Below, in pieces: positions 6,599 through 30,800 of a stretch of 64,000 nucleotides of DNA. Below the pieces are notes generated by a model that had not been told where the DNA came from, made no database searches, and saw only the letters and a list, made by a program, of their open reading frames with translations. Position 1 is the first letter of the stretch; each line of letters begins with the position of its first letter. The DNA lies in contig CANIBZ010000003.1 in assembly GCA_947466425.1 (NCBI GenBank), forward strand, positions 1 through 64,000. Direction: 5' to 3'. The DNA comes from Flavobacteriales bacterium. Lineage in GTDB: Bacteria > Bacteroidota > Bacteroidia > Flavobacteriales_D > Sanyastnellaceae. The translations under genes were made by a program, and so were the position numbers.

Positions 6599-6650
6599 GG
6601 TGCAAATATACGAATGACCATTATTAAATAATTGCCGATTATATAAAGGG

Positions 6651-6700
6651 TAAAAGAAGATAAGAGAGGTTAAGAAAAGGTAAGAGAGGGTAAGAATGGA
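6651..6700 (+). repeat. Decamer array (TAARA-N5)x5
   Basis: TAAAAGAAGA TAAGAGAGGT TAAGAAAAGG TAAGAGAGGG TAAGAATGGA, exact 10-bp register, just upstream of the 6715 CDS. Confidence 0.85.
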
Positions 6701-11005: not shown

Positions 11006-13372
11006 ATGAAAAAATGGATATCTTTTTTTATTGGTGTTGCGCTTCTTTCTTCATGCAGCATATTAAACAAGAATAAAAAAGTAGCAGAGCTACCCGGACT
11101 GGCTTCTCCCATTCATCTTCCAACTACCTACACCCGCATTCCCGTTTCGAATTACATCGTTCATCCGGAAGATGTGTTAAGCATCTCCACAAGTCCTTAC
11201 GACAAAACAAATCTGTCTTCATCGCGCGAAGTGGTCTTCCCAGCAGGTAACTACGAGCCCGTTTTCAATTTAAATATTGAAACGAAGACCAATGAATATG
11301 ACATTCCCGTTTTCGCTTCAGCGAAGAAATCAGTAGTCTTTACATACACTCCAACTTTTGAAAAAAATGTGAATTCTGTTTTTATTGCTGGAGCAATGAA
11401 TGGATGGAATAAGAATGCCACTCCTTTGAAACGCAACGATGACGGAACCTACAGCGTTGAGTTGTTTTTAGAGCCAGGATTGTATCCTTATCGCATTTGG
11501 GAAAACGGGACAGACGAACTGCTCGACGCGAACAACAAGAATAAAATGCCGAACGGACTTGGCGGAGAAAACAGTTTCATTGAAATTCCTTCGGCTCCTA
11601 AACCAACCTTGGAGGTCCTTTCTCAAAAAGGAAAGAAAATAATCATCTATTGCAGCAGCGAACCGAAAGGCGCGCAAATCTATTTCGAGAATCAACGCAT
11701 TCCTGTTTCCATTGTGCACGTGCAAGAGCCATACTTGAGCGAATGGGAATTGCATTTCAATATTCCTGCGAAGGCGTGGAAGTTGAAACGCTCGCATATT
11801 CGTGCTTATGCACACGACGGAAATCAACTCTTCAACGATGTGCTCATTCCACTTTCATATGGAAGACCCGTGAAAAAACCCTTCCAACTAAAAAGAAAAG
11901 ACACCCGCGCCACAGTCATGTATTTCGCCATGGTCGATCGTTTCAAAAATGGAAAAAAAGAAAACGATCGTCCAACAAATGACGCGCGCATTAAACCCAT
12001 CGCAAATAATTTAGGGGGTGATTTAGTTGGGATTACGAAAGCCATTCAAGATGGATACTTCAAAAAGTTAGGAACGAATACCATCTGGATTTCACCCATT
12101 ACTAAGAATGCAGAAGGCGCTTGGGGCTTGTGGGACAAAGGTGGAGACACAAGCATGTTCAGCGGATACCACGGCTACTGGCCAACTTCGCTTCGAACCA
12201 TTGACGATCGTTTCGGGACAGAAGAAGAATTCAAAAACTTATTGAAGGTCGCACACAAACACAAGATGAATGTCTATCTCGATTACGTGGCCCATCACGT
12301 GCATCAAGATCATCCGTTAATCAAAGAACACAAAGATTGGGTCACGCCGTTGTATCTTCCAGATGGAAGCATGAACACCGAACGTTGGGACGATCAGCGT
12401 TTGACCACCTGGTTCGATGTCTTCCTTCCAACGTGGGATTTCGCGAAACCTGAAGTGGTAAGTGCATTGACAGACACTGCCATGTTTTGGGTAACGAATT
12501 ACGACCTAGACGGATTCCGTCACGACGCTACGAAGCACATCCGCACAGAATTCTGGACAACACTCACTTCGAAAGTGAAAGCAAGCGGAAAGAATGTTTT
12601 TCAAATTGGAGAAACCTACGGAAGCCCTGAGTTGATTCAATCATACATTGGAAGTGAGCAAATGGATGCGCAGTTCGATTTTAATTTGTACGACGCGGCA
12701 GTAGATGCCTTCGCCAAACCAGAAACGAGCTTTGCGAATTTGGGAAGAGTCATTCAAGAAAGCGCAAAGTATTACGGATCGCACCACATGATGGGAAACA
12801 TCACCGGGAATCAAGACCGCGCGCGATTCATTTCATATGCCGATGGAAGTGTGAAGTTTGAAGAGAACGCAAAGCAAGCCGGATGGTCGCGCAAGATTGA
12901 GCACAAAGACAATGTTGGGTATGTTCGCTTGGAGCAGCTCACCGCTTTCTTAATGTCGGTTCCTGGAATTCCTTGCATTTATTACGGAGATGAGATTGGA
13001 ATGCCGGGTGGAAATGATCCTGACAATCGCCGCATGATGCGCTTCGATCAGTTGAACAGCGAAGAGACGGCGCTTCGCACTTCAACTCAGAAATTAGTAA
13101 AGCTGAGAAGAAAGAATTTGCCTTTGATTTACGGAGAAACTTATGTGTTGCAAGCCGACGAGAAGGCCTTGGTTATTGCAAGAAAATACCTTGACAAAAT
13201 TTCCATTGCAGTCTTCGCGAAAGGCGAAGGCAATGTGAACATTACGCTTCCAGGGTATTGGAAAGGAAAGGTGAGTACAGACGGATTGGAGGTTGTTGGA
13301 ACTGATCTAGGTTCTAATTCTTACACGTTGAAAGTGGGTGGAAAAGGATACGGATTCTTCTTCGTGAAATGA
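11006..13372 (+). CDS. GH13 alpha-amylase family lipoprotein with N-terminal CBM48-like domain
   Basis: 788 aa; lipobox LLSSCS; AGAMNGWNKNATPLKRNDDGTYSVELFLEPGLYPYRI; DGFRHDATKHI, IGETYG, ITGNQDRARF catalytic regions. Confidence 0.9.
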   Translation: MKKWISFFIGVALLSSCSILNKNKKVAELPGLASPIHLPTTYTRIPVSNYIVHPEDVLSISTSPYDKTNLSSSREVVFPAGNYEPVFNLNIETKTNEYDIPVFASAKKSVVFTYTPTFEKNVNSVFIAGAMNGWNKNATPLKRNDDGTYSVELFLEPGLYPYRIWENGTDELLDANNKNKMPNGLGGENSFIEIPSAPKPTLEVLSQKGKKIIIYCSSEPKGAQIYFENQRIPVSIVHVQEPYLSEWELHFNIPAKAWKLKRSHIRAYAHDGNQLFNDVLIPLSYGRPVKKPFQLKRKDTRATVMYFAMVDRFKNGKKENDRPTNDARIKPIANNLGGDLVGITKAIQDGYFKKLGTNTIWISPITKNAEGAWGLWDKGGDTSMFSGYHGYWPTSLRTIDDRFGTEEEFKNLLKVAHKHKMNVYLDYVAHHVHQDHPLIKEHKDWVTPLYLPDGSMNTERWDDQRLTTWFDVFLPTWDFAKPEVVSALTDTAMFWVTNYDLDGFRHDATKHIRTEFWTTLTSKVKASGKNVFQIGETYGSPELIQSYIGSEQMDAQFDFNLYDAAVDAFAKPETSFANLGRVIQESAKYYGSHHMMGNITGNQDRARFISYADGSVKFEENAKQAGWSRKIEHKDNVGYVRLEQLTAFLMSVPGIPCIYYGDEIGMPGGNDPDNRRMMRFDQLNSEETALRTSTQKLVKLRRKNLPLIYGETYVLQADEKALVIARKYLDKISIAVFAKGEGNVNITLPGYWKGKVSTDGLEVVGTDLGSNSYTLKVGGKGYGFFFVK

Positions 13373-14226
13373 ACCACATTCTTCCGAATAACAAAATAAG
13401 CACGCTGAAAGAATTCGCGCTTCAGCGAATAGGAGAGGTTTACGATGCGAGAGAAGCGCGAAATGTCGTGAACGAATTGTTCAGACATTATTTGAATTTC
13501 TCTGCTGCAGACTTGGTGGTGAAAGCGAACGACACCGTCAGCGAATCGCAGATGCTCTTGATTTACAAAGCCGCCAAGCGCATTGCCCAGCACGAACCCT
13601 TGCAATATGTTTTGGGTTCCGCTTATTTCTTCGGAATGGACTTGCACGTGAACAGTTCTGTGCTTATCCCGCGTCCAGAAACCGAAGAGTTGGTGAGATG
13701 GATACTAGAGACCATAAAACCGAATAATCATTCGGTTCTTGACATCGGAACCGGCTCCGGCGCCATAGCCCTCGCTTTGAAAAAAGCACAACCGAATTGG
13801 AACGTATGCGGAGTAGATGTTTCGAAAGACGCCTTGCAAGTGGCTCAAAGAAATTCAACTGAATTACAGTTGGAAGTAGAGTGGAAGGAAGTGGATATTC
13901 TAGCCGAAAATTTTCCTGAAGGAAATTGGAACTGCATCGTCTCTAATCCGCCTTACATAACTGTTTCAGAAGGAAATGAAATGCGCACCTCCGTTGTTCA
14001 ACACGAACCACACCTCGCGCTTTTCGTTCCGGAAAACGACCCTTTACTTTTTTACCGACGCATTCTAGAACTCGCGAACCAATGTGAAAAAGTCAATCAA
14101 GTCTTCTTCGAAATTCACGAGAATTACGCTACCGAAACCTTCGCTCTCGGAGAGTCAATGGGCTGGAAAGGAGAGTTGAAAAAAGATTTACAAGGGAAAT
14201 CCCGCATGCTCCTCTTTACGAAGTAA
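13369..14226 (+). CDS. prmC: Peptide chain release factor N5-glutamine methyltransferase
   Basis: 285 aa; VLDIGTGSGAIALAL and SNPPYI motifs; ATGA overlap with GH13 gene. Confidence 0.9.
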   Translation: MNHILPNNKISTLKEFALQRIGEVYDAREARNVVNELFRHYLNFSAADLVVKANDTVSESQMLLIYKAAKRIAQHEPLQYVLGSAYFFGMDLHVNSSVLIPRPETEELVRWILETIKPNNHSVLDIGTGSGAIALALKKAQPNWNVCGVDVSKDALQVAQRNSTELQLEVEWKEVDILAENFPEGNWNCIVSNPPYITVSEGNEMRTSVVQHEPHLALFVPENDPLLFYRRILELANQCEKVNQVFFEIHENYATETFALGESMGWKGELKKDLQGKSRMLLFTK

Positions 14227-14314
14227 TCTTGCTACGCATCTTGTGAAACATCTTTGGCTCCGCCAATCTTCGGCTCCGCCAATCTTCGGCTCCGCCAATC
14301 TTCGGCTTCGCCAA
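14227..14314. repeat. Array of six mini-hairpins with TCTT spacers
   Basis: TCTT-GCTACGCA-TCTT-GTGAAACA-TCTT-TGGCTCCGCCAA-(TCTT-CGGCTCCGCCAA)x2-TCTT-CGGCTTCGCCAA; fills exactly the gap between prmC stop and the stop of the 14315 CDS. Confidence 0.9.
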
Positions 14315-16924
14315 TCAGCCTTCCATCCCGCCTTCGTTCGACTTCATGTTCTTGCGCTTGAACAACTGCGAATCCATCTTTCCAAATTTCCATGAAATGT
14401 TGAAACGGAACATCTGCCAATCGCGACGCTTGTAGGTAATCTGATCGAAGTAAGGCGAAGTGCTGTGAACAATGTTCACACGTGTGCGTAAAACGTCTTG
14501 AGCGCTAAGAGAAAACACCAAGCTTCTGTTTTCTAAAAATTCTTTTCGAACAGAAAGGTCCAAGCCGTAGGTTGGTTCAATGTATCCTTGAACGGTGTTG
14601 TTGCTTCCGCCCCAGCCACCGCCGCCCATACCCATTCCTCCGCCACCGCCGCCGCCGCCGCCACGTTCACTGCTCCCAACTTCCAACGAACGTTTGCTGC
14701 TGTAATCGAACATGGCTTGAATGGAAATATTCTTCGGTGCCTTGTAGGTGATGTTACTTTTAATCCAATACGAACTGATGTTGTTTTTCAAATTCGGATC
14801 GAGATTCGTTCCGTCAATGGCACTGTTATACACGTTTATGTTCGTACTTATTTCAATGGATTTACTGAGTGAATTTTTTGAGACAAATTCCAATCCCAAG
14901 GCCTGACTGCTGTTCGCGTTTTGGTATGAAGTGACAACAATGGTATCTCCCGGATGAAGCGTGCTTGGTTCACGGTTTTGCTGACGCACCGTAATGTTCG
15001 TCGTATAGCGTCCATACGCCGAAACTAAAATGGTGTTTTTCTTATTGGGAATCCATTGCCAAGATAGTTCACCTGATTGTGTGAACTCGGGTTTCAACCC
15101 CGGATTTCCACGTTGAATATTCAGCGAGTCGCTGTAGTCGGTAAACGGAGAAAGTGTCATAAAACTCGGACGGTTAATCTTTCTATTCAACGCAAATTGA
15201 ACGTCTTGCTTTTCAGTAATGACACGGGTTACGAATAACGAAGGGAAAAGGGCAATTGGATATTTGTACGCGAAATTGCTTCCATTACTCAATAGCTCTG
15301 CTTTGTAATCACTGCTCTCGGCGCGAAGTCCTGCTTTGATTTTCCAAGTAGGTAAATCCAATGCTACCGTTCCATAGGCAGCGTAAACTTGATCGAGATA
15401 ATGGTAGTTCACTTGCAACGAAGTAATGTCTGTCCAAACCCCATTTTGAAATTGTCTGTTTTTGTATTCTGTGGTGAAGTCCCTCACCGAAGCGCGTGTC
15501 CCGGCTTCCACGCGAAAGCGATCGGTTACCTTCGATTCGAAATCTATTTGTGAAGTCACCAAAAACTGAGAGACATCTCCGTGCTGCATTAAGTATGTCG
15601 CATTCGCGTCGTTGTATATGTTGGTGTAATCACCATCGAACACACTTTTAATTCGGTTGTAGTTAATGTCAGCATTCAACTCCGTTCCTTCTTTTGTGAA
15701 TAGGTGTTTATAAAGTGCACTTCCTCCAATGTTCTGAAACGCGCGTTTGGTTTTGCTTTCGCGGTAGTAAGATCCTATTCCACCACCAAGGGTGTCGGTC
15801 TTTACATCCAACGTGTCGAAAGGTGCAAAAGATCCTTTCATAATGTTTGCGGAAAAAGTAAGGGTGTTTCTATTGTCTATCAGCCAATCGAATCCGCCTC
15901 TTCCGTTCAACATAAAACCGTCGTTACGGCTGTATTGATTTTGAAACAATGAATAAGCAGGAAAAATATTTTCGCGTTGAGTCGTACCGATACTAATGCT
16001 TCGGCGTTGGTTGAAATTCGTGTTCGCGAAGAAGTTTATTTTTCCTTGACGGAAATTAAAATCGAACCCTGAATTCACGCGACCGCGCTTGTCTATTCCT
16101 GCGCGAATGCTTCCGTTGTAACCAGCGCTGCGGTTGTGCTTCATGACAATGTTTACAATACCACCACCGCCGCCACTGGCGTCGTACTTCGCAGATGGAT
16201 TGGTAATTAATTCTACTCGTTGAATAGCATCTGCAGGAATCTGATCAATGGTCAGAGTTGTTGGTCTTCCATCTACAAAAATTTGTGGAGCAGCATTTCG
16301 AAGCTGCACGTTTCCATCTGTATCTACTTGAAGTGAAGGAATGTTTCTCAGCACATCTTCCGCTGTTCCTCCCGAGTTCATGGGATTCTTGTCTACGTCG
16401 TAAATACGTTTATCGAATTCCAACCGCGGACCACCACCGTCTATGGTCACGGTATTTAATTGTCCAGTGAAGGTGAGCTTAAGATTGCCTAAATCTTTTT
16501 CAATAAGTCCCATGGGGCCTCCTGAAGGTTTCAAACTGAAGACAAAAAAGGCAGCGTCCACTTCAGCCAGAGAAAAGCGTAGGGTGAGTTTTTCATTCAC
16601 CGGTAAATCTTCGATTGTAAATTCTCCGTTCGATTGCGAGAGGGCGCCGCCCAAAACAAGCGGATTCTTTTCCTTCACCACCAAACTGTCTTCTTTATAA
16701 ACGCGCAAAATCACGAACTCAAGAGGCTTGTTTGTTCGAGCGTCGAACAACTTTCCATAAACGCGTCCTTTCGCCGCAGGTCTTCCAGGCTGTCCTGTTC
16801 CGCCCCCTCCAGGTCTTCCGCCGTTTTGAGGCTGCGCAAATGTCGTGATTGCGAAAATCACAGCACAAACGGTGAGTAGGATAAATTTACCTTTAGGAAA
16901 ATTATTGTTTATTTGAAATGTCAT
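14315..16924 (-). CDS. TonB-dependent receptor-like outer membrane beta-barrel protein
   Basis: 869 aa; carboxypeptidase-regulatory-like N-term (GRVYGKLFDARTNKPLEFVILRVY), plug (DVLRNIPSLQVDTDGNVQLRNAAPQIFVDGRPTTLTIDQIPADAIQRVELITNPSAKYDA), barrel. Confidence 0.9.
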   Translation of the reverse strand: MTFQINNNFPKGKFILLTVCAVIFAITTFAQPQNGGRPGGGGTGQPGRPAAKGRVYGKLFDARTNKPLEFVILRVYKEDSLVVKEKNPLVLGGALSQSNGEFTIEDLPVNEKLTLRFSLAEVDAAFFVFSLKPSGGPMGLIEKDLGNLKLTFTGQLNTVTIDGGGPRLEFDKRIYDVDKNPMNSGGTAEDVLRNIPSLQVDTDGNVQLRNAAPQIFVDGRPTTLTIDQIPADAIQRVELITNPSAKYDASGGGGGIVNIVMKHNRSAGYNGSIRAGIDKRGRVNSGFDFNFRQGKINFFANTNFNQRRSISIGTTQRENIFPAYSLFQNQYSRNDGFMLNGRGGFDWLIDNRNTLTFSANIMKGSFAPFDTLDVKTDTLGGGIGSYYRESKTKRAFQNIGGSALYKHLFTKEGTELNADINYNRIKSVFDGDYTNIYNDANATYLMQHGDVSQFLVTSQIDFESKVTDRFRVEAGTRASVRDFTTEYKNRQFQNGVWTDITSLQVNYHYLDQVYAAYGTVALDLPTWKIKAGLRAESSDYKAELLSNGSNFAYKYPIALFPSLFVTRVITEKQDVQFALNRKINRPSFMTLSPFTDYSDSLNIQRGNPGLKPEFTQSGELSWQWIPNKKNTILVSAYGRYTTNITVRQQNREPSTLHPGDTIVVTSYQNANSSQALGLEFVSKNSLSKSIEISTNINVYNSAIDGTNLDPNLKNNISSYWIKSNITYKAPKNISIQAMFDYSSKRSLEVGSSERGGGGGGGGGMGMGGGGWGGSNNTVQGYIEPTYGLDLSVRKEFLENRSLVFSLSAQDVLRTRVNIVHSTSPYFDQITYKRRDWQMFRFNISWKFGKMDSQLFKRKNMKSNEGGMEG

Positions 16925-19996: not shown

Positions 19997-20003
19997 ATTT
20001 TAT

Positions 20004-20086
20004 CTTCCCTTTTCTTACCCTTTCTTAACTTCTCTTACCTTTTTTCAAATCTTCCCTTTTCTTACCCTTTCTTAACTTCTCTTACC
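20004..20086 (-). repeat. Two 36-nt copies of a TCTTA-N5 decamer array (47-bp period)
   Basis: CTTCCCTTTTCTTACCCTTTCTTAACTTCTCTTACC at 20004-20039 and 20051-20086; reverse complement resembles the 6651-6700 array. Confidence 0.9.
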
Positions 20087-20089
20087 CTC

Positions 20090-20152
20090 GTCTTCAGACA
20101 TTCGTGGCTCCGCCACATTCGTCCTTGGGACATTCGTGGCTCCGCCACATTT
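20090..20152. repeat. Mini-hairpin array with ATTC spacers
   Basis: GTCTTCAGAC-ATTC-GTGGCTCCGCCAC-ATTC-GTCCTTGGGAC-ATTC-GTGGCTCCGCCAC-ATTT. Confidence 0.88.
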
Positions 20153-23551: not shown

Positions 23552-23596
23552 ATTTCAAAAATAGGACAGAAGCAAAGATGTACTACATTTGCCTTG

Positions 23597-23780
23597 CATT
23601 TGGTCAATGAAGAAGTTTATTGTGAAAAGGGAATCGCGCGAAAATCGCGAACTGTGCCCGCAGCTGTAAAGCTCTCATTCGAAAGAATGAAAACGATTGC
23701 CACTCAAAGCCACTGTGAAAACGGGAAGGCGAGCAACCGAGAGATAAGTCAGAAGACCTGCCAAGTGTATTAACCCCATC
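23597..23780 (+). promoter_or_regulatory. Cobalamin (B12) riboswitch
   Basis: aaaagggaat...ctgtgcccgcagctgtaa...gccactgtgaaaacgggaaggcg...agtcagaagacctgcc, directly upstream of a BtuB-like receptor; TACATTTG -7 element at 23584-23591. Confidence 0.9.
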
Positions 23781-27835: not shown

Positions 27836-27880
27836 TCATCAATCGCAGATTGTCATCACGCAGTGTCATCCGTGCAACGG
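27836..27880. repeat. Mini-hairpin array with TCATC spacers and GCA loops
   Basis: TCATC-AATCGCAGATTG-TCATC-ACGCAGTG-TCATC-CGTGCAACGG; stems CAATC/GATTG, CAC/GTG, CCGT/ACGG, all with loop GCA. Confidence 0.8.
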
Positions 27881-27885
27881 TTGTG

Positions 27886-30800
27886 TTATCTCACCAAGGT
27901 AATTGCACCTTGGTACTCCTTGGCTTCTCCGTTGAATCCTTTGATTTTTGCCACATAGTTATAGACATCATTTGGGCAATACGTGCTGTTATTGCCTCTG
28001 CGGTCGCCTACCCATGCATCTTCGATATTCGTTGAGTAATACACCTGGTCGCCCCAACGGTCGAAAATTCGAATTTCAAAATTCATGACACTACTTGCTT
28101 CAACCATGAAGACGTCATTCAATCCATCATTATTTGGAGTAAAGGTATTCGGTATGTACATTAACGGCGGGAAGGTGATCGTATAACTGTTGCTTGCAGA
28201 ACAACCAATGGCATTGGTAACGTTGAAATAAACAGTTGATTCGCCAAATCCGTCAAAAGTATAGGAGACATTCGGTGTTGTCATAACTTCTCCGCTTGGG
28301 AAAATCCATTCGTAATTGCAATTAAGACAGGGAGGAGTATCTATATTAATGAAGTCATAAGTGTAGCCCGAAGTGTTTTCCGCGGTGAACTGCGCATCTA
28401 CAGGAATAACATCAACGAAAATATCTTCCGATATAAATTGGCCGCACATATCGCTTGCCGTTACAGTGTATGTTGTTGGAGAAGTTAAGTCGTTATACGT
28501 TGCTGTGTTTCCATTGCTATTGTTGGTCCATGTATAGGTAAATCCACCTCCACCACCTGAAGCTTGAGCGCTCAGCATAGCAGTACCCAATACACAAACG
28601 GCCGTATCAAGAGAAGCCACAAGATTCAAAGGAGGATTCGGAATGAAAATCATTAATGTATCTGAATCTGTCTGATTACAGACATCCGTGATTATTGCAA
28701 TGACTTGTTCGTCAACGGGAGTAACAATAGAGAATGTTGTGGCATTTCCAGCTACAGCATTGTCAACAATCCAGTCGAAACTGTTTCCTCCAGAACCACC
28801 TGAAATGGTTGGAGTAAGTACGCTGTTATCTAAACATCCTGCAGTGATGTCGTTTCCGAGATCAATGAATACAGGAGGATTTGTAATGGTGATAGGCACT
28901 AGTGCATTGGCAGAGGAGCCACAACCATCGGTAACCGTTAGTCCAACTGAAGTTGAAACACCCGGAGTCAATGTATAGTTCACGCTTGTTGATGCAGGAG
29001 TTCCATTGTTTGTCCACGCGTATGACATGGTTCCACCACCGCCTGTCACAGTAGGTTGAATGGTGAACGGAGTGATACAGTTTCCAGCTAAGGAGGCTGG
29101 AAGTGTTACTGCAAGCGGCGGAGCTTCTACAGTAACAACAGTACTCGCAGTTGTGAATTGCCCACATCCATCGCTTACATCAACTTCAATAATCGCTTGA
29201 GAAGTAATTCCGGTATTGTCGTATAGATTATCAAACTCATCCCATTCGTATACGTTGTTGGTATACCAACTGTAAGAATAGAATCCGTCACCACCCGCTA
29301 CCGTAGCAGGAATAGTGAAGAAAGTCAAACAAGGTGCGTTAACAGTGTCTGGAACTGTAATTACAAGAGGCGGAATATTAAGTGATACTTGAATTTGATC
29401 AGTGGCTACAAGTCCACACCCATCGGTAACCTCAACATTTACTGTTCCAGGTCCATTCCAAGAACCGAAGAAAAGTGAATTGCCCCAGCCGAATAAATTC
29501 GCTCCGTTTTCATCGGTCCAGATATAAGCGTAAATACCGTCACCGCCTGTGGTTGTTGCTGTGATGTTCACACTTTCATTACAACCAATAGTAATATCGC
29601 CGTTGTCAATGTTGGTAACCAGTTGGGGAAAGACAAGTATGTTAACAGGAAAATTCGTGTTTCCTCCTGGCCATCCGCAAGTATCTGTTACAGTTAAAAA
29701 ATATGTCGTCGAATTAATCGGAGAAACATCAATGGTTGGAGTAGTCTCATTGGTGCTCCAATTGTAAACATAATTGCCATAACCTCCGGTAATTGTAGGT
29801 TCCAATGTCGCTGTAACGCCTTGACATAAGTCTTGTGGATACCCAGTAACAACGATTGGATCGGGAACATCAGCTACAAAGAAATCGAAGTTACTTACCA
29901 GTCCAGAACCGTTGCAGGCTGCCAAATTCAAAATGTCCATGTGAACGGTTTCAATACCTTCTGTAAGTCCGTCTGCAAAAGCATCAATAACAAAAGACAC
30001 TGAAGCTACTCCCGGAGGAAATATTATTGTGTCAGGCATGAAAGTGAAGTCAACACCATTGACAGCAGTGCCCGTCCATGTGATAATGCACATGTCTTGA
30101 ATGGAAAGGTCACTTACTTCAGGACGGGTGAAGGTTAATGTTGCTTCGCCACAATCTTCAAATAGTGTTTCTTCGTTCGGACCACCAGCATTCAACGTTA
30201 AGTCCACATCAACGACAGCATTACTCGAGAAAGAGCCCTCTTCAAGAATAACCGCAGATTCCAAAGCTGTGTCACTGCCATCAGCAATAGCCAACTTAAT
30301 GTGGTAGGTTTCTCCACATTGAACCAACGACCAGGCTTCCAAGGTCACAGTGTATCCGTTCAGGTAGATCCCAACGTTAGGTTGATTGTCAATGTAGTAT
30401 GAACTATTCAATACGTTGTTTACAGAACTAATGGTGATAGGCAGTGGGGGAGTCGTGTTTGGTAATTGAGCAATGTTTACAGCTCCACCAGGGAATCCAG
30501 CCGGCGCGGCATAAGGACCGGTAAGTCCAGGTCCAGAAAGCAAAAAGGCGAAGATGTCGTTGTAAGAAGAATTCACCCAAGTCAAATATTCATCACTTCC
30601 GAAAATGTAATTGAAACGTAAGGTGTCTCCGGTTGGAACAAAATCGAATTCGAGAATAGCAACATCATTCACACTTCCAACAGAAAAGGTTTGTCCAATT
30701 AATGGAGGGACAGAATTTGCAATTGACAAAAGCGCGGCGTCTCCTGAAACTTCACAAGTACCGTCCAAGAATGCTGTCGATGCCGGATCAACAATAGTGG

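Follow-up and report, generated by a model that had tools for sequence, protein, structure and literature searches.

Among described repeats, REP/BIME elements are the closest known kind, in their way of life, to the arrays reported here: they carry a four-nucleotide tag at the 5' base of a hairpin, are extragenic, lie at gene 3' ends and in convergent gaps, sometimes supply a stop codon, form inverted pairs and occur in many lineage-specific copies (PMC3733652). Their tags are GTAG or CGTC, and their palindromes, of conserved sequence and 20-40 bp in length, have stems of 5-13 bp (mostly 6-9 bp) in which G.T pairing is common (PMC3733652). The IS200/IS605-type TnpA-Y1 transposases of subclass 1.2 occur in Bacteroidetes and Cyanobacteria, are marked by the motifs DH[IV]H, WQ and YIKNQKEHH, and have no described REP (PMC6006769). 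Small hairpins with loops of 3-5 nt also flood non-coding DNA as the Volvox-type organelle short palindromic repeats, which are thought to be selfish (excerpted text of PMC2670323). DNA mini-hairpins of the d(GCGAAGC) type, in which a C-G-closed GNA triloop sits on a short GC stem, are known from synthetic DNA, and such mini-hairpins are extraordinarily stable when a GNA loop is combined with two or more G-C pairs (PMC4686876).

The window examined here, meaning the whole 64,000-nt stretch of DNA that was analysed, comes from a 2.586-Mb draft genome. An initial annotation had parsed an 88-bp gap between two of its stop codons as six TCTT-spaced mini-hairpins and had named two further loci, 20090-20152 and 27836-27880, of the same design with other spacers. 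The features concerned are the following.

13369-14226, plus strand: prmC-like protein-glutamine methyltransferase gene (PrmC_N PF17827, MTS PF05175), upstream convergent neighbour of array 1
14227-14314, no strand assigned: array 1, six TCTT-tagged mini-hairpin units (12, 12, 16, 16, 16 and 16 nt) in the gap between the prmC and outer membrane beta-barrel genes, read directly
14227-14250, plus strand: units 1-2 of array 1, TCTT+TGC-TAC-GCA type, 12 nt each
14251-14314, plus strand: units 3-6 of array 1, TTGGC-TCC-GCCAA and three of the TCGGC-TYC-GCCAA type, 16 nt each with a 16-nt period
14315-16924, minus strand: outer membrane beta-barrel (OMP_b-brl_3) gene, convergent neighbour of array 1
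20090-20152, minus strand: array 2, tag GAAT (ATTC on the plus strand), directly after the stop of a minus-strand GH92 gene and in the sense of that gene
27836-27886, plus strand: array 3, tag TCAT, between convergent genes

On direct reading, the parse of array 1 is exact. The stop codon TAA of prmC is followed by TCTT-GCTACGCA, TCTT-GTGAAACA, TCTT-TGGCTCCGCCAA, two copies of TCTT-CGGCTCCGCCAA and TCTT-CGGCTTCGCCAA, and then by TCA, the reverse stop of the convergent outer membrane gene, such that 6 x 4 + 8 + 8 + 4 x 12 = 88 bases are accounted for with a remainder of zero. The hairpins proposed for these units are likewise present, but the stems of the last three (CGGC...GCCAA) are imperfect, with one C.A mismatch each in the extended stem. 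The motif GGCTYCGCC occurs six times in the window, compared to 0.41 expected. When the 88 nt were folded as single-stranded DNA with a nearest-neighbour model, the result was unexceptional (z -0.56 and -2.0), so the signal lies in the modular design and not in total stability. Arrays 2 and 3 are real as well: array 2 consists of GTGGC-GGA-GCCAC, GTCC-CAA-GGAC, GTGGC-GGA-GCCAC and a cap, GTC-TGAA-GAC, and array 3 of CAATC-GCA-GATTG, CAC-GCA-GTG and CCGT-GCA-ACGG. An Rfam scan of the window yielded only a cobalamin riboswitch and two tRNAs above the gathering score, and the arrays were without a match; the riboswitch (23584-23779) lies upstream of a TonB-dependent receptor-like gene.

The abundance of the design was assessed in two ways. 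A detector demanding an exact 4-nt spacer with a hairpin (stem of at least 3 bp) between copies returned about 20 arrays from 464 kb of sequence, whereas five dinucleotide-shuffled versions gave none. In a census of gaps of at least 30 bp, based on simple gene calls over 1.22 Mb of the source genome and one congener, arrays occupied 36 of 536 intergenic gaps; five shuffles contained none, and of 925 coding fragments one held an array. Statistics throughout draw on 1.22-1.51 Mb taken as stretches; because the extra 0.29 Mb, used for the palindrome, loop, cap, T-run and orthologue counts, was chosen around known matches, unbiased densities come from the census alone. The GCTA/GCAA arrays at 63114-64521 of G000 contig C5 proved to be coding tandem repeats and were excluded from the gap arrays. 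The tags are mostly GAAT/ATTC, then TCAA/TTGA, GAGG, TCAT and CTTA, with TCTT in array 1. One tag is kept per array, the outer base pair of the hairpin is constant within a tag family (CGAATG, ATCAAT, GTCATC, CGAGGG), and the tag and closing pair are the only letters constant within an array.

Arrays are extragenic and sit at gene ends, as REP/BIME elements do. They follow stop codons, often immediately, and in the gap census they were present in 18% of convergent gaps, 5.7% of co-directional gaps and 3.9% of divergent gaps; the larger set includes 11 array gaps between divergent genes. Within co-directional gaps, arrays less than 40 bp from the stop have the canonical sense (GAAT/TCAA) by 10:1 and distal arrays are antisense by 9:2, such that many loci are pairs of inverted arms around an A+T-rich centre and, again like REP/BIME elements, able to fold together. 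The initial annotation had proposed comparing such arrays with shuffled intergenic sequence and placing them relative to gene 3' ends, and both comparisons returned strong enrichment.

Other repeats share some of these gaps. Purine-rich 10-bp tandem repeats (GGTTAAGAGAAGGG-like) adjoin hairpin arrays at 6645-6696 and 20003-20088 of the window and in gaps of G000 and congeners, and persist at one locus without an array (G004). Many array gaps are also filled by a further hairpin system of greater complexity, which has CCAAT/GGAAT joints (TACGAAGTA, AACGAAGTT, AAAACCGAAGGTTTT) and lies, among other loci, at G000 C1 48519-49486, C9 31460-31914 and C4 5557-6004; nearly all matches to its motifs are intergenic, and reversed controls gave zero.

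To describe unit shape, units were delimited by the extended tag alone, a hairpin not being demanded. Of 251 such units, 230 (92%) are perfect Watson-Crick palindromes, and these 230 comprise 125 distinct sequences of 7-17 nt with stems mostly of 2-6 bp; structure is therefore conserved over sequence, as the initial annotation had held. Among 728 inner pairs read on the canonical strand, 702 are Watson-Crick, 4 are G.T and 12 are A.C. The turn preference is DNA-like: the loop-closing pair is 5'C-G3' in 179 of 199 triloop units, and 125 of the 199 have a GNA loop on one strand or the other, compared to a column-shuffle mean of 66.8 and a maximum of 86 in 2000 shuffles. The GNA strand is mostly opposite the canonical one (48:28 in GAAT arrays, 23:1 in TCAA arrays). 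The commonest unit core is that of the d(GCGAAGC)-type mini-hairpins, which we did not find described as a genomic repeat class in the literature searched.

Orthologous gaps were compared in 39 pairs holding 86 homologous units. Changed sites number 41 of 267 in loops and 22 of 696 at stem positions, loops thus changing about five times faster. Thirteen stem pairs had changed, of which nine were altered on both sides; all nine are Watson-Crick again, and no G.T intermediate was seen. For some of these double changes, those in array 1 above all, the cause may be the exchange of entire units instead of substitution within a unit; clean paired changes outside array 1 number about three. Whole units are gained and lost, and congeners have empty sites in orthologous gaps. 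The prmC gap holds arrays of 3 to 11 units in five congeners, with stems such as TTGGC/GCCAA, TTCAC/GTGAA, TTGAC/GTCAA and TTGAT/ATCAA, and congeners carry GCGAAGCA and GTGCAACA at the position of units 1-2. (Contigs of G003, G005 and G006 break inside prmC.) Array 2 has counterparts in G005 and G003, whereas in G006 and G002 the gap is 11 bp long and array-free; the stem of the second unit reads GTCC/GGAC in one species but GCC/GGC in another. In array 3 the number of units varies among species, with 0, 1, 3, 5 and about 6 recorded (none in G001, one in G006 and G008, five in G005 and G003, about six in G004). The gain and loss of units and the compensatory stem changes that the initial annotation had thought orthologous gaps might reveal are thus both seen.

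At an aminotransferase locus of G003 (L224 14500-14640), two convergent genes are separated by an array, whereas in three congeners they abut. The final codons and stop of the aminotransferase gene have given way to the array, which supplies new C-terminal residues and a stop. Of the features of MITEs, terminal inverted repeats plus a target-site duplication, inverted arms are present at some loci, and no such duplication was seen at the one clean new site (G003).

For the tags scanned (CATTCG and ATCAAT widely), the arrays are confined to the genus of the window. CATTCG triples number 92 in G000, 78 in G004, 70 in G003, 55 in G005, 51 in G001, 15 in G006, 7 in G002 and none in G007 and G008, the reversed pattern giving none in any of G000-G008; ATCAAT triples number 120 in G000, 60 in G003, 57 in G005, 47 in G001, 39 in G004, 16 in G006, 7 in G002, 4 in G008 and 1 in G007. 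Totals per genome therefore fall from about 212 (G000) to 1-4 (G007, G008). In other genomes of the family the CATTCG scan matched only non-hairpin repeats, and genus g9 and others were rejected as carriers since what matched there proved to be hairpin-free tandem repeats, of 7 bp or other kinds; 7-bp tandem repeats (CCACTCG/TCACTAG) are abundant in g9 (G056, G061 and others). ATCAAT triples elsewhere among 399 genomes of the order were set aside as AT-rich background, and no arrays were seen in a thin sample of twenty 3-20-kb stretches of other genera. Two congener genomes (L116, L123) are deposited as Chryseobacterium gleum and are apparently misnamed. As one design recurs at scores of gene ends in the source genome and its closest relatives and is unseen in the other sampled genera, it seems to represent a new and rapidly evolving type of repeat in which shape is retained rather than sequence.

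No described repeat class of tag plus mini-palindrome design was found in the literature searched. Compared to REP/BIME elements, the arrays have the tags GAAT, TCAA, TCAT, GAGG and TCTT in place of GTAG or CGTC, and stems of 2-6 bp in unit palindromes that are not conserved; because these two defining features differ, we do not file the arrays as REP. They differ further in being tandem runs of different hairpins, in having several co-existing tags and in the near absence of G.T pairs. The Volvox-type repeats, unlike the arrays, share more than 50% sequence identity, average 50 nt and are nested in each other, and the excerpted text does not describe a constant tag or gene-end polarity for them (PMC2670323). 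Our preferred explanation, to which we give about an even chance, is that the arrays are an extragenic DNA repeat specific to this lineage, akin to REP/BIME elements but new in architecture. Each unit joins a 4-nt tag to a tiny perfect palindrome with a C-G-closed triloop; palindromy would be kept at the DNA level by arm copying, and a Y1 transposase possibly spreads the arrays.

A different reading, which we consider rather improbable, is that the arrays are RNA structures of 3' untranslated regions, serving transcription termination or the protection or processing of mRNA 3' ends, with stems kept by selection on RNA folding. The position right after stop codons, the sense polarity, the excess in convergent gaps and the paired stem changes all agree with it, as does the cap: the last unit of GAAT arrays is GTC-N3-GAC in 43 of 79 cases, compared to 21 of 293 internal units, and T-rich bases follow this hairpin. 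T-runs on the transcript strand are fewer in array gaps (13 of 58) than in other gene-end gaps (107 of 255; p=0.007), which could reflect either a function where transcripts end or a tendency of arrays to settle at such sites. Like intrinsic terminators, the arrays place hairpins after stop codons, often between convergent genes, but they are many tiny hairpins in place of one strong stem, and no G+C-rich stem followed by a U-tract was found around array 1 (13900-14700 examined). Because G.T pairs are nearly absent, and indeed rarer than A.C, selection on RNA structure is demoted as the main cause; orthologous gene ends without arrays in several congeners, the arrays between divergent genes and the unremarkable folding energy of array 1 also speak against it. 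The RNA-level roles suggested by the initial annotation (termination, 3' protection, a platform for RNA-binding proteins) are accordingly not supported as they were put, given the 4 G.T pairs in 728, the array-free orthologous ends and the missing U-tract at array 1; a role at transcript ends is possible.

It is also unlikely, in our estimate, that the arrays are a true REP-like system in which tag and hairpin together form the recognition site of a Y1 transposase from the Bacteroidota/Cyanobacteria subclass 1.2, with clade-specific tags (TCAA for type A enzymes, GAAT for type B). IS200-like Y1 genes occur once or twice each in four array-rich genomes (G000, G005, G001 and G004), and their motifs DHVH, WQ and YIQNQKxHH or YIKNQKNHH match those tabulated for subclass 1.2. 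Arrays lie just upstream at four of five distinct Y1 loci, TCAA beside both of type A and GAAT beside both of type B, compared to 8.7% of genes with comparable gaps (p of about 3e-4, post hoc test). However, most of these arrays go with the end of the gene that comes before, and the Y1 genes (L124, L125, L128, L129) bear flanking repeats of their own that are possible REPs of the subclass, one of which, GAGCTCGCTTTGCGAGxGGCATGGGTATTGCCCCCAGTGAAGCTGGGGG, stands on both flanks of the Y1 gene of G005 C1. No Y1 match was found in the remaining genomes of the genus, including G003, which is array-rich and 96% complete, no arrays flank 26 Y1 relatives in other Flavobacteriales genera, and no enzyme was found for the TCAT, GAGG or TCTT tags. 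Y1/RAYT as a proven driver was demoted on account of G003 and the 26 array-free relatives, and the link is kept as a lead.

That the tag is a binding site for a protein, whether a DNA- or RNA-binding regulator or a nucleoid protein, with hairpins as spacing or presentation devices, is very unlikely: the constancy of tag and closing pair within an array would suit such a site, but several unrelated tags share one design in one genome, and copy number differs greatly among congeners, which also have empty orthologous sites. Ordinary neutral tandem duplication of a chance palindromic unit, to which the plain duplicated blocks of some arrays (the G001 locus; units 4-5 of array 1) might point, can be dismissed almost entirely, as the initial annotation had also judged, since it is contradicted by the palindromy of tag-delimited units, most of which differ in stem within an array, by stems that change more slowly than loops and mostly in pairs, and by the sharing of one design among several unrelated tags.

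Under the preferred explanation, an extragenic repeat maintained as DNA, units would be gained and lost via slippage or recombination between identical tags. A single strand would fold into a mini-hairpin during replication or repair, and one arm would then be copied from the other, a quasi-palindrome correction that we infer from the patterns of change. Because the folded strand would let arm template arm, palindromes could stay perfect, and both arms would change together. Turns would persist only if they fold well as DNA (cGNAg), and whole arrays would be copied into new gene ends, where they would do least harm, possibly by a Y1 (IS200/TnpA-REP-like) single-strand transposase. Of the roles listed by the initial annotation, a hairpin-templated slippage element comes nearest to this evidence. 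A bolder version, which we put forward tentatively and think doubtful, is that the inherited unit is a shape, namely a 4-nt tag followed by a single-stranded DNA mini-hairpin that has an arbitrary stem and a cGNAg turn. One arm would be rewritten from the other by templated copying, and Y1 transposases of subclass 1.2, every one with a tag of its own, would spread the units to gene ends and have the arrays as their substrates.

These observations carry a caution for comparative searches for RNA structure, which would score array loci as RNA families because of their paired stem changes, changes that may arise in DNA. The arrays are also candidate substrates for a Y1 transposase group without described ones. 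Whereas the extragenic palindromic repeats described so far are identified by a sequence that they conserve, the arrays keep perfect palindromy, loop type and tag even as their letters are replaced inside one genus. The upkeep of small inverted repeats is usually studied with reporter constructs, as quasi-palindrome mutation, and the genomes of this genus are a natural record of how such repeats stay perfect.
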